Positions 47,161 through 61,721 of a stretch of DNA of 64,000 nucleotides are shown here, in pieces (position 1 is the first letter of the stretch; the number at the start of each line of letters is the position of its first letter). The position numbers were made by a program, and so were the translations under genes. Below the pieces are notes generated by a model. The model did no database searches. It saw only the letters and a list, made by a program, of their open reading frames with translations, and was not told the DNA's origin. Origin of the DNA: Phycisphaeraceae bacterium (lineage in GTDB: Bacteria; Planctomycetota; Phycisphaerae; Phycisphaerales; UBA1924); the NCBI GenBank assembly GCA_021297895.1, contig JAJTHN010000002.1, positions 62,001 through 126,000 of the forward strand. The letters are read 5' to 3'.

Positions 47161-47282
47161 AATCAGGCGTTCACCCTATCGCCACTCGCGGGCACCACTC
47201 CGCACCCGCACCACTCGACACCCACCGCTCCCCTCTTCACTTGACCATTTCGCCCCTTGGCCACTTGACCACTTGCTCCCCC

Positions 47283-58307: not shown

Positions 58308-59492
58308 TTGCACAGGCGATCACGATCACACCAGCGCCCGCACGACGAACGCGGCGCTTCCCCCCTCGCGGAGACACGGACGTTGGGATCTCGCAGACGC
58401 AATCGCGGCCGGGGCGGACACCACGGACAAGGCGGACAGCACGCACACGCAGGGCCCAACGGCCACGGAGGCAACCACGCCGGAGGTCATCACCCGGGCC
58501 ACGGCGGCCACGGCGGACCAGTCGGCCACCACGCGCCCGCGGCCACCGCCGAGCCATTTCCGGTGCCGGGCTTCGACCCCGCGACCTCGCCCCGAAACAA
58601 GCCCTTCGAGGACCTGACCAGCATCGACCCGCAGCCGCGGCTGACGCTGGAGTATCCCGGCTGCCCGGATTCGTGCCGGCTCATCGACTTGTTCTGCCCG
58701 ATCGGCCGCGGACAGCGATCGCTGATCGTCTCGCCGCCCAAGGCCGGCAAGACGACGCTGCTCAAGGACATCTCGCTGGCCATCGCCAAGAACCACAGCG
58801 ATGTGACCATCATCGCGCTGCTGATCGACGAGCGGCCGGAAGAAGTCACGGACTTCCGGCGGTTCTTCGGCCACTTTCCCAAGGGCGAGGGCGATGTGCC
58901 CAGGGCCGTGGTCATCGGCTCGAGCAACGACCACGGCGTGGATCGGCACATCGCGGTGGCGACGACCACCATCGCCGCGGCCAAGCGCATGGTCGAGAGC
59001 GGCCGGCACGTGGTGATCATGCTCGACTCGCTCACGCGGCTGGGCCGCGCGTTCAACCTCTCGCGTAAGCACGCCAACAGCGGTCGCACGCTCAGCGGCG
59101 GGCTCGACGCCAAGGCGTTGGAGGTGCCGCGGCAGATCTTCGGCGCCGCGCGTAACGCCGAGGAGGGCGGCTCACTGACGATCATCGCCTCGTGCCTGGT
59201 CGACACCGGCAGCATCGGCGATCAGGTGATCTTCGAGGAGTTCAAGGGCTCGGGCAACATGGAACTGGTGCTCGATCGCAAGATCGCCGAGCGCCGGCTC
59301 TACCCGTCGATCAACCTCGCCGCCAGCGGCACGCGGAAAGAGAACCTGCTGATGGGCGACATCGAGTACAAGACGATGGCCGCGCTGCGGCGAAGGCTCA
59401 TCAGCATGCCGCCGCACGTGCAGATCGAGCAGTTGCTCAGCGCGCTCAAGCGATTCAAGACCAACGCGGACCTGGTTGGCTCGGCGAGTTGA
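58308..59492 (+). CDS. rho: Transcription termination factor Rho without N-terminal RNA-binding domain
   Basis: The 394-residue product has a complete Rho motor: PIGRGQRSLIVSPPKAGKTT (P-loop at about 142-150), LIDERPEEVTDF, LDSLTRLGRAFN, Q-loop SGRTLSGGLDAKAL, GAARNAEEGGSLTIIASCLV and R-loop GTRKENLLMG. It should translocate on RNA and end transcription. But the usual N-terminal half (Rho_N helices and the cold-shock-like primary RNA site, about 130 residues) is missing. In its place are about 90 residues of Arg-rich and then Gly/His-rich sequence (GGHHGQGGQHAHAGPNGHGG). Upstream space to shc is too short to hold the lost domain. The start is uncertain: TTG here, or TTG 25 codons later with GGAG nine bases before it. 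Confidence 0.88.
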   Translation: MHRRSRSHQRPHDERGASPLAETRTLGSRRRNRGRGGHHGQGGQHAHAGPNGHGGNHAGGHHPGHGGHGGPVGHHAPAATAEPFPVPGFDPATSPRNKPFEDLTSIDPQPRLTLEYPGCPDSCRLIDLFCPIGRGQRSLIVSPPKAGKTTLLKDISLAIAKNHSDVTIIALLIDERPEEVTDFRRFFGHFPKGEGDVPRAVVIGSSNDHGVDRHIAVATTTIAAAKRMVESGRHVVIMLDSLTRLGRAFNLSRKHANSGRTLSGGLDAKALEVPRQIFGAARNAEEGGSLTIIASCLVDTGSIGDQVIFEEFKGSGNMELVLDRKIAERRLYPSINLAASGTRKENLLMGDIEYKTMAALRRRLISMPPHVQIEQLLSALKRFKTNADLVGSAS

Positions 59493-59501
59493 GCGGGGGA
59501 C

Positions 59502-59590
59502 GTGGCGCAGCGGCAGAGAGGCGCCGTGACAATCGAAACGCGAGTCAGACGCCGGATCTGAGGCCCTGCGAAGATCCGGATCGCACGCGC
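59502..59590 (+). other. 3' element copy A, directly after rho
   Basis: Begins nine bases past the rho stop. Three blocks are shared with copy B on the other strand: GTGGCGCAGCGGCAGAG (59502), GACGCCGGATCTGAG (59548) and GAAGATCCGGAT (59570). CCGGATCT pairs with AGATCCGG into an 8-bp hairpin; the first block, like a tRNA D-arm (box A), pairs GGCGC with GCGCC. I see no full tRNA: no matching acceptor stem or T-arm. Confidence 0.6.
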
Positions 59591-59635
59591 CCGAACTGGC
59601 GTTGGGCACGCATACGCGCGCACCTGCTCGCACGA

Positions 59636-59739
59636 AACCATCCGGACCTTCGTCGAAAACTCCTCAGGTCCGGCGTCCAAGGCGTGTGACTTTGTAGCAG
59701 CGCGTGAGCACGCACTCTGCCACTCTGCCACTGCGCCAC
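59636..59739 (-). other. 3' element copy B, directly after the PLP-enzyme gene
   Basis: Begins two bases past the stop of the minus-strand PLP-enzyme gene, in the same relation to its gene as copy A. Blocks: GTGGCGCAGTGGCAGAG (59739-59723), GACGCCGGACCTGAG (59677-59663), GAAGGTCCGGAT (59651-59640). The hairpin is CCGGACCT/AGGTCCGG; against copy A one pair has changed on both sides (C-G for T-A). Confidence 0.6.
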
Positions 59740-59741
59740 TC

Positions 59742-61721
59742 TTACTTCAGCAACTCGCTCATCGGCGAGAGCTGCTCGACGAACGTCTTGTGCACGTTCG
59801 CGTAGTGCTTGCGGTAGATCGCGTCGATCTTGTCGGGGCTGAGGAACTTCTTGCTGAAGCCCGGGGCCGCGTGATCGATCGTCAGTTCGGATGTGCGGAT
59901 GATGTGCGCCAGGATCGTGCGCGGGTCCTCCGCGCCAACGGCGATGCGCACCGTCGTCGGCTGAATGCCCGCCGAGCGCAGCGCCTCGTCGCTCATCTCG
60001 CTGTGGCTGGTGATCGCCGGGCAGAGCACAACGGTGTTGGTCTGCCCGAGGCTGACCTGGTGGCCCATGACCGGGTCGAGCGCATCGAAGAACCGCTTGA
60101 ACGTCTCGCGATCGATCGGCGGGCGCTTGCCCGGCTTGCCCTCGAAGTCGATCGTGAACAGCGGCGCGGGCATGCCCAGGTGCAGACACTTCTCGCGGAT
60201 CGGGCCGTTGAAGTGACCGGTGACCGCGTTGCAGTTGGCGTTCATGTCCGGGTGCGCACCGAGCACCTCGGCCAGCGTCAGCGTGTTGGCCGCCTTGGTC
60301 AGCATGCGCATCTCGAGCGTGTGCAGGCCGTTGATCACCTCGTAGGCCTTGTCGGCATCGAGGAACGCGCCCTTGATGTAGTACACGTTCCAGAAGAGCG
60401 TCTCGTGCCCGTGCCACTCGCGGGCCGAGCCGTCGACATCCTTGCCGATGACCTTGTCGTGCTTGCCCATGAACATGCGCTCGTTGCGCCCGATGACGCA
60501 GCCCGCGGTGGTGCCGCCGGTGCCCGAGATGTCCTTGGTGTAGCTGTGAATCACAAAGTCCGGACGCTCCATCTCGTCCTTGCGGCGGAGCGGGCGGTGC
60601 AGGAACGGCGTGCCGACGGTGCTGTCGCACAGCACGGTCAGGCCGCGCTTGTGCGCCTCCTTGCACATGGCCGGAATGTCCAGCACGTATCCGTGCGGGT
60701 TGCACGGGCTCTCGAGGTACACGTAGATGTGCTTGCCCTCGGCGATGCGGTCCTTGTACTTCTTGCTCACCGCGTCGAGCGCCTTGACAAAGTCCGCGCC
60801 GCTATAGCCGTCGAAGAACTCCACCGCGACATCGAGATTGCTCGGCTTGGCGAACCAGTCGTGCAGCAGCTGGTACGTGCCGCCGTAGACGTTCCGCGAG
60901 GCCAGCACGATGTCGCGGTGGCCGACCAGGTGCGAGAGGATCGCGTCGATCGCGGCCATGCCCGAGTTGAAGTTCCACGCGAAGTAGTGCTGCGCCTCCG
61001 GCCCGGCCTCGATGTCCACGATGTGGTTGGCCAGCGCGACGTTCGTCGGATTGAGCAGACGCGAGTAGACCTCGAGCATCAGCTCCTTGCCCTGGAACGC
61101 GTCGTCCACCCACTCCGAGCACGCGTAGATGTACGTCGCCGTCCGCGTGATCACGGGCTTGGCGCTGAACAGCGCCGTGAGGTTGTCGAACACGGGGTAC
61201 GGCCCGCGCGCGAGCCTGCTGCTCTGCGTGTCGACGATCGACTGATACGTCCGGCGGAACGGATGCATCAGCGTGTCGAGCATCTTGGCCATCTGGAAGC
61301 ACAGGAACTTCTGGGCCGCGAAGCGCGCCGCCCGATCCCGCCGGGGCAGGCTCGCCAGTTCGCTCGTCAGCGCCTGCCAGAGGTGCTTGAGGTCGGCGTG
61401 CCCGGAGTAGATGTGCCCGGCGACGCCCGCCAGGTGCTTGCCAAAGTCGCTGGCGGGATCGATGCCGAAGTGCTCGAGCTGCTCGCCGACGAGGCCCTGA
61501 ATGTCACCGGCCTTGGTGCTCTTGCGCCGGGGGCTGATCTCGCGCGCCAGTTCGAAGTCCGTCAGCACGTGCGGCCGCGCGACCTTGCCGCGGCCCGAGG
61601 CCGGAGCGGCGGCAACCGCCGCGCCGTTGCTGGTCCCGTTCTTCGAGCCGTTCTTCGTACCGTGCTTGTTCGCGGGCTTGGCGGAGTTCTTCGAGGTGCT
61701 GCGAGCGGTGGATCGGGCCAT
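59742..61721 (-). CDS. Cys/Met-metabolism PLP-dependent enzyme, long form
   Basis: The 659-residue product contains a type I PLP fold of the cystathionine gamma-synthase/O-acetylhomoserine sulfhydrylase family. The cofactor lysine lies in HSYTKDISGTGGTTAGCVIG; VLCDSTVGTPFLHRP supplies the Asp facing the pyridine, and FAWNFNSGMAAIDAIL the phosphate loop. It should act in gamma- or beta-replacement or elimination on a sulfur amino acid in the cytoplasm. Over 200 extra N-terminal residues (Lys/Ser/Asn-rich start, then a helical part ISPRRKSTKAGDIQ...) make it much longer than the usual 400. The exact reaction cannot be read. AAGGA lies eight bases before the ATG. It converges with rho. Confidence 0.82.
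   Translation of the reverse strand: MARSTARSTSKNSAKPANKHGTKNGSKNGTSNGAAVAAAPASGRGKVARPHVLTDFELAREISPRRKSTKAGDIQGLVGEQLEHFGIDPASDFGKHLAGVAGHIYSGHADLKHLWQALTSELASLPRRDRAARFAAQKFLCFQMAKMLDTLMHPFRRTYQSIVDTQSSRLARGPYPVFDNLTALFSAKPVITRTATYIYACSEWVDDAFQGKELMLEVYSRLLNPTNVALANHIVDIEAGPEAQHYFAWNFNSGMAAIDAILSHLVGHRDIVLASRNVYGGTYQLLHDWFAKPSNLDVAVEFFDGYSGADFVKALDAVSKKYKDRIAEGKHIYVYLESPCNPHGYVLDIPAMCKEAHKRGLTVLCDSTVGTPFLHRPLRRKDEMERPDFVIHSYTKDISGTGGTTAGCVIGRNERMFMGKHDKVIGKDVDGSAREWHGHETLFWNVYYIKGAFLDADKAYEVINGLHTLEMRMLTKAANTLTLAEVLGAHPDMNANCNAVTGHFNGPIREKCLHLGMPAPLFTIDFEGKPGKRPPIDRETFKRFFDALDPVMGHQVSLGQTNTVVLCPAITSHSEMSDEALRSAGIQPTTVRIAVGAEDPRTILAHIIRTSELTIDHAAPGFSKKFLSPDKIDAIYRKHYANVHKTFVEQLSPMSELLK

Follow-up and report, generated by a model that had tools for sequence, protein, structure and literature searches.

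The interval between rho and a gene for a PLP-dependent enzyme in a Phycisphaeraceae bacterium raises the question of why the same blocks of sequence stand behind the stop codons of two convergent genes. The original prediction, drawn from the 64,000-nucleotide stretch of DNA analysed here (the window), had read three shared blocks as one structured 3' element, and had considered a conserved 3'-UTR signal or a tRNA-derived mobile repeat. In the window, 249 bases separate the rho stop (59492) from the end of the PLP gene (59742), and the locus is composed as follows.

58308-59492, plus strand: rho (transcription termination factor); longest ORF, true start uncertain
59502-59522, plus strand: degenerate octamer array 3' of rho, about two units of GTGGCRSA
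59548-59581, plus strand: hairpin copy 1 with tag, stem-loop and AT tail (E = 3.2e-11 in the source genome); GACG tag at 59548-59551, stem-loop at 59552-59579, 8-bp stem, 12-nt loop
59582-59639, no strand: spacer between the inverted hairpins, whose untagged ends face each other and whose tags point outward
59640-59677, minus strand: hairpin copy 2, inverted, with tag, stem-loop and AT tail (E = 1.1e-9 in the source genome); GACG tag at 59677-59674, stem-loop at 59673-59642, 8-bp stem, 16-nt loop
59716-59739, minus strand: octamer array 3' of the PLP gene, three units GTGGCGCA GTGGCAGA GTGGCAGA
59742-61721, minus strand: PLP-dependent enzyme of the Cys/Met metabolism type; ORF of 659 aa

The part of rho at 58563-59492 scored above the cut-off of NCBIfam NF006886, and the PLP enzyme fell below the curated cut-off of each NCBIfam family among the 25 listed of 43. 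The TGA of rho occupies 59490-59492, and its block 1 begins 9 bases further on, at 59502; on the minus strand the TAA of the PLP gene occupies 59744-59742, with block 1 beginning 2 bases on, at 59739. These coordinates confirm that the shared blocks follow both stops at 2 to 9 bases. Block 1 reads GTGGCGCAGCGGCAGAG on the rho side and GTGGCGCAGTGGCAGAG on the PLP side, with 16 of 17 positions identical. The arm GACGCCGGATCTGAGG (59548, 16 nt) matches its inverted counterpart at 59662 by 94%, and the arm CGAAGATCCGGAT (59569, 13 nt) its counterpart at 59640 by 92%. The identities are thus close to those first given, and blocks 2 and 3 each prove one base longer than the predicted 15 and 12, since the arms measure 16 nt and 13 nt. 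The 8-bp stems, CCGGATCT/AGATCCGG and CCGGACCT/AGGTCCGG, carry the T-A to C-G compensatory exchange just as had been described. What had been overlooked is the inverted arrangement of the two copies and the fact that block 1 and the hairpin are separate families.

This separation answers the first part of the question: the interval is two unrelated dispersed repeats rather than one element. Among the hairpin copies read in the source genome, 3 of 13 had an octamer double unit within 300 nt, and a hairpin lay within 400 nt of 2 of the 43 octamer arrays; a fourth hairpin copy, on contig C1 of the source genome, lies near a degenerate octamer array. The single-element reading of the three blocks does not survive these counts. 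Our preferred reading, to which we assign a probability of roughly 0.7, is that an inverted pair (tags outward) of a REP-like Phycisphaerae palindrome is flanked here by stop-anchored octamer arrays. Both repeats are dispersed, multi-copy and mostly extragenic, and both favour the sense strand behind stop codons, the hairpin strongly so in genome G080 only.

Block 1 is a short run of a tandemly repeated octamer, (GTGGCRSA)n, two or three units in length. Allowing up to 3 mismatches, it gave 275 matches in the source genome compared with 105 for a reversed control, and the exact double unit GTGGCRSAGTGGCRSAG occurred 150 times in this genome and in 6 of 151 genomes of the order, the source genome included. 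Matches read in place were arrays of 2 to 11 units. At least 43 such arrays were collected from the fetched stretches, a number that is not a full census and in which some long arrays are split in two by the pattern; 42 of the 43 were intergenic. With gene ends taken from a simple codon-usage caller, whose starts are rough, 15 of 42 arrays began at most 30 nt from a sense stop codon and 1 equally close to the start of an antisense gene. Where a downstream gene was called, the other end of the array lay within 30 nt of that gene in 0 of 24 cases. At least 16 of the array places fell within 1 kb of a contig end.

A third, different GC-rich repeat, CCTCCCCC...GGGGGAGG, likewise dispersed and in many cases with a GTCTTCGAG-containing stretch behind it, comes after 23 of the 42 octamer arrays, 3 of them among the 15 near sense stops; it occupied 40 distinct sites, counted on one strand, in the stretches L009-L043. 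Elsewhere in the window, positions 47238-47275 hold another period-8 array, CACTTGAC, in 4.8 copies.

Arrays of GTGGCAAA, GTGACGAA and similar units were seen in genomes G053, G080 and G098, some within 15 nt of a sense stop and others sited elsewhere. More generally, period 7-9 arrays in 80 Phycisphaerae loci were intergenic in 55 cases and inside genes in 19. In a placement test that ignores strand, 15 array ends fell within 15 nt of a gene 3' end, compared with a null of 4.2 (sd 2.1, maximum 9 in 200), while gene 5' ends had 3 observed vs 4.6 expected. Other 7-8-nt arrays with a GGCA core (AAGGCATC and AGGCACGA units) were present in several Phycisphaerae records (L066-L145).

The tandem nature of block 1 also bears on the proposal that the element is a mobile repeat derived from a tRNA, with block 1 as the remnant of a D-arm. 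Two octamer units do resemble the D-arm of the tRNA consensus, as the original prediction noted; however, ARAGORN found no tRNA, Rfam gave no match up to E = 10, and arrays of up to 11 units together with the GTGGCAAA and GTGACGAA variants explain the block as a tandem repeat. We consider a tRNA origin highly improbable. A stable G-quadruplex, the structure associated with the Xanthomonas/Nostoc tandem repeat, also appears unlikely for the octamer, because its unit contains GG only.

A tagged hairpin, 5'-GACG-CCGGAYCT...AGRTCCGG-3', has blocks 2 and 3 as its arms, an 8-bp stem and a loop of mostly 12 or 16 nt. Position 5 of the alignment, within the tag, is C in 89, A in 29 and T in 4 of the 122 rows that have a letter there, so that the tag is GAAG instead of GACG in 29 of 122. 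When two stem pairs were left free in the search pattern, 87 of 90 cells paired among the 45 matches listed, whereas shuffles gave a mean of 60 and at most 72 of 90; the free pairs included A-T, G-C, C-G and T-A as well as wobble. Across 118 distinct aligned copies 98.8% of stem cells pair, a figure inflated by the fact that most copies were collected with patterns fixing most of the stem; the freer test, with the two-free-pair pattern, concerns two pairs. In the same 118 copies, 27 stem cells were changed on both sides compared with 2.6 in shuffles, and this support collapsed once the stem partners were slid. The stem is kept through compensatory changes, and the covariation anticipated for a larger alignment is therefore present.

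Further copies, which the original prediction had proposed to seek in this genome and its relatives, were also found. A tight hairpin pattern gave 9 matches in the source genome and 0 for its control. A sequence-only model returned at least 16 copies at E < 1e-3 and 20 rows at E <= 1; the 16 are a lower bound, since 150 of 5353 first-look candidates were scored. With two inner pairs free, the hairpin was detected in 6 of 151 genomes of the order: 12 matches in the source genome, 55 in G080 (another genome of the same family), 3 in G095, 2 in G094 and 1 each in G046 and G020. A database scan revealed 105 stretches with the hairpin, and the 80 of these that were listed were all titled Planctomycetota. 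Within those 80 stretches, 79 of 86 hairpin copies were intergenic, and 8 of 86 had an inverted partner within 250 nt, all with tags outward and none inward; two further tag-outward pairs lie on contig C1 of the source genome. Copies from one genome are not independent, and 25 of the 86 come from G080, where they form part of its 55.

Neither a hairpin-empty site nor a recent transposition was observed, and no close strain sharing this interval turned up. One record (L073, JAJTDF010000145.1) shares 3039 identical bases with source contig C8, at a place outside the rho-PLP interval, whereas the genome of that record reaches just 80% identity in its best match to the PLP end of the window. These two observations suggest that L073 is possibly a mis-binned contig.

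Because its two hairpin copies run in opposite directions, the interval as a whole also forms a large palindrome and folds as one long hairpin. For a 255-nt stretch including both stops, the folding energy was -125.9 kcal/mol (z -5.2) on the plus strand and -146.9 kcal/mol (z -7.7) on the minus strand. Folded alone, the rho-side half did not surpass its shuffles (z 0.36), whereas the PLP-side half did so to some degree (z -1.99). We asked the same of the octamer arrays in general, and an octamer palindrome did not hold up as a rule: an inverted array lay downstream of only 4 of 42 arrays by a strict pattern. Since inverted downstream arrays are this rare, the palindrome of the interval is mainly a consequence of the convergence of the genes and of the hairpin pair.

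Such a palindrome could in principle act as a bidirectional terminator dedicated to this convergent gene pair, rho and PLP, and the fold of the whole interval, which beat all 200 shuffles on each strand, is in agreement with this idea. Nevertheless, the stems are not followed by a T-run, inverted partners accompany so few copies elsewhere (8 of 86), and the arrangement is absent beside rho or PLP in relatives, save for one single hairpin at PLP. We therefore regard a dedicated bidirectional terminator as improbable. Nor does the hairpin by itself qualify as an intrinsic terminator, as the combination of a GC stem and a T-run is not there: the T fraction was 0.28 in the 8 nt after the stem of intergenic copies. 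A separate terminator lay within 140 nt behind 5 of 52 sense hairpin copies (5 of 21 in G080, 0 of 31 elsewhere) compared with 35 of 376 control genes, for which the stretch covered was 20-200 nt, which indicates no overall enrichment of terminators.

The presence of the element after rho had been singled out as notable. In the fetched loci of 29 rho relatives of the family, three of which span just 135 to 593 nt behind the stop, neither the hairpin nor the octamer array was found (0 of 29), and the copies listed on the rho contig of G080 lie more than 100 kb from rho. Full-length relatives of the PLP gene had no rho beside them within the stretch read (0 of 11). A whole-locus scan, on which the count rests since a wrong frame had been taken at 3 of the 12 PLP loci, found a single hairpin behind the PLP stop in 1 of the 11, that of G080, a copy on which a tblastn search over the 80 listed loci of the 105 also bears; a loose-pattern match inside the called PLP gene of L182 was dropped as chance. 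With 55 copies in the G080 genome, its PLP-adjacent hairpin may be chance as well. Adjacency of the repeats to rho is thus probably a coincidence.

Placement relative to stop codons speaks more directly to function. Both neighbouring genes were called for 66 hairpin copies; 30 of these had their tag end no more than 40 nt from a sense stop, and 5 had the opposite end equally close to an antisense stop. Most of this signal originates from G080, where 17 of 22 copies were near a sense stop and tandem sites held 11 sense vs 1 antisense copies; in all other genomes the counts were 13 of 44 and 16 sense vs 11 antisense. In the source genome, for which 13 of 16 copies were read for gene context, a sense gene lay upstream of 9 of the 13 and within 40 nt of 3. 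The expectation that copies would stand behind stops in sense orientation therefore holds as an overall tendency and for G080; the sense bias is strong in that genome only and weak elsewhere.

These data allow us to weigh the alternative that the hairpin is a selected cis-acting 3'-UTR RNA structure, placed in sense behind stops and acting in mRNA decay, ribosome release or the exit from transcription. The excess of sense stops at the tag end, the polarity in G080, the compensatory stem changes and the copy behind the PLP stop of the G080 relative all argue for such a role. Against it stand the weak bias outside G080, the small share of source-genome copies close to a sense stop, the occurrence in only 1 of 11 PLP and 0 of 29 rho relatives, and the patchy distribution over 6 of 151 genomes. 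Taken together, we consider this explanation doubtful. The strong sense bias in G080, however, exceeds what plain tolerance would need and so counts against our preferred reading. A selected 3'-UTR role of the hairpin or octamer repeats is possible but unproven, and a processing or stability role of the hairpin is likewise possible. In E. coli, REPs within 15 nt of a stop reportedly cause ribosomes to stall (work cited in PMC12306157); the stems of the pair in the window start 59 and 68 nt behind the stops, hence stalling is not expected at this site.

To place the two repeats among known systems, we return to the reading as a REP-like pair beside octamer arrays. The hairpin shares the general features of REPs: it is a short palindrome (20-40 bp), extragenic and mostly near 3' ends, and it forms inverted dimers. 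As portrayed in parts of PMC3733652 (Di Nocera et al. 2013), the CGTC-tagged REPs resemble it in being short palindromes that have an 8-bp stem and bear an unpaired tag, which in our hairpin reads GACG on one strand and CGTC on its complement, in forming inverted dimers often of unlike members with a spacer that here falls within their usual 20-100 nt, in lying extragenically near the 3' ends of upstream and convergent genes, and in having no dedicated or flanking transposase. In contrast, CGTC families 1-4 are described there with a loop of 4-5 nt and a stem that starts with a paired AT, whereas our hairpin has the stem CCGGAYCT, a loop of 12-16 nt and a lower copy number. Given these differences in loop and stem sequence, we did not file it in families 1-4. 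The same paper names Planctomycetes among carriers of tagged REPs, and its Results give five phyla for the CGTC repeats, Planctomycetes not being among them. The copy number of the hairpin is low for a REP; this, the deviating loop and stem, the variable tag, the lack of observed empty sites and the rarity of the hairpin at Y1-transposase loci weigh against our preferred reading.

REPIN/RAYT systems and BIMEs are similar in their inverted pairs of short palindromes scattered through intergenic space; REPIN/RAYT differ in that no RAYT flanked by the hairpin of the interval was found. Of 31 Y1-transposase loci (30 among the matches listed and one of two others), 2 hold the hairpin, in one copy each, and hairpins flanking the transposase gene were not found in any. 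The one full-length Y1/RAYT-like transposase match of the source genome (C71:143723-144067) is surrounded by copies of a GTAG-tagged palindrome (GTAGCCACGGGT...) at C71:143278-144416 (L208, L064), a REP-RAYT-like arrangement unrelated to the CCGGAYCT hairpin.

The octamer has the character of the known 6-9 nt intergenic repeats, being tandem, mainly non-coding and in sense behind stops. Heptamer repeats of Xanthomonas and Nostoc, as outlined in sections of Rehm et al. 2015 (PMC4692102), likewise form short-unit tandem arrays in intergenic DNA and favour the sense strand within 50 bp behind the stop; GTGGCRSA differs from them by being without their runs of at least 3 G. The TAACTGA direct repeats of Beggiatoaceae, by the account in portions of PMC4679880, also comprise many short intergenic tandem arrays of one unit, but are mostly found just before start codons whereas octamer arrays lie behind stop codons. 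No published description of the hairpin or the octamer was found in the literature searched, including by sequence.

How the locus may have arisen can be outlined. The hairpin could have spread as a REP-type element, perhaps through a transposase acting in trans, and may persist where it is least harmful, in the untranslated region that follows genes. As RNA, it would make a stable hairpin and could lend stability to the mRNA end or hold back ribosomes or RNA polymerase, as has been proposed for REPs elsewhere. In this convergent interval, either transcript could also fold the pair together into a single long hairpin. Replication slippage probably makes the octamer arrays expand and contract, and each short array would belong to the 3' end of its adjoining gene.

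A broader, more speculative idea is that gene ends in Phycisphaerae need or attract structure on the sense strand, as the hairpin and the 7-9-nt arrays are both stop-anchored with polarity. We hold this to be unlikely. If true, it would point to a 3'-UTR module acting at translation termination or in mRNA decay, or to a termination-coupled process that seeds and expands repeats at these sites.

As a REP-like family of Phycisphaerae, the hairpin is new and supported by covariation, and the octamer is best read as a stop-anchored short tandem repeat; both are new members of kinds already known. For readers of genomes, the locus illustrates how two dispersed repeats that meet in one interval can pass for a single element placed behind both of two convergent genes. 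The findings add a REP-like family for Planctomycetota and further stop-anchored short tandem arrays besides those of Xanthomonas and Nostoc. The sense bias of the hairpin in G080 is the part worth following up, as its strength allows a test of whether 3'-UTR elements can be recruited from REP-like repeats.
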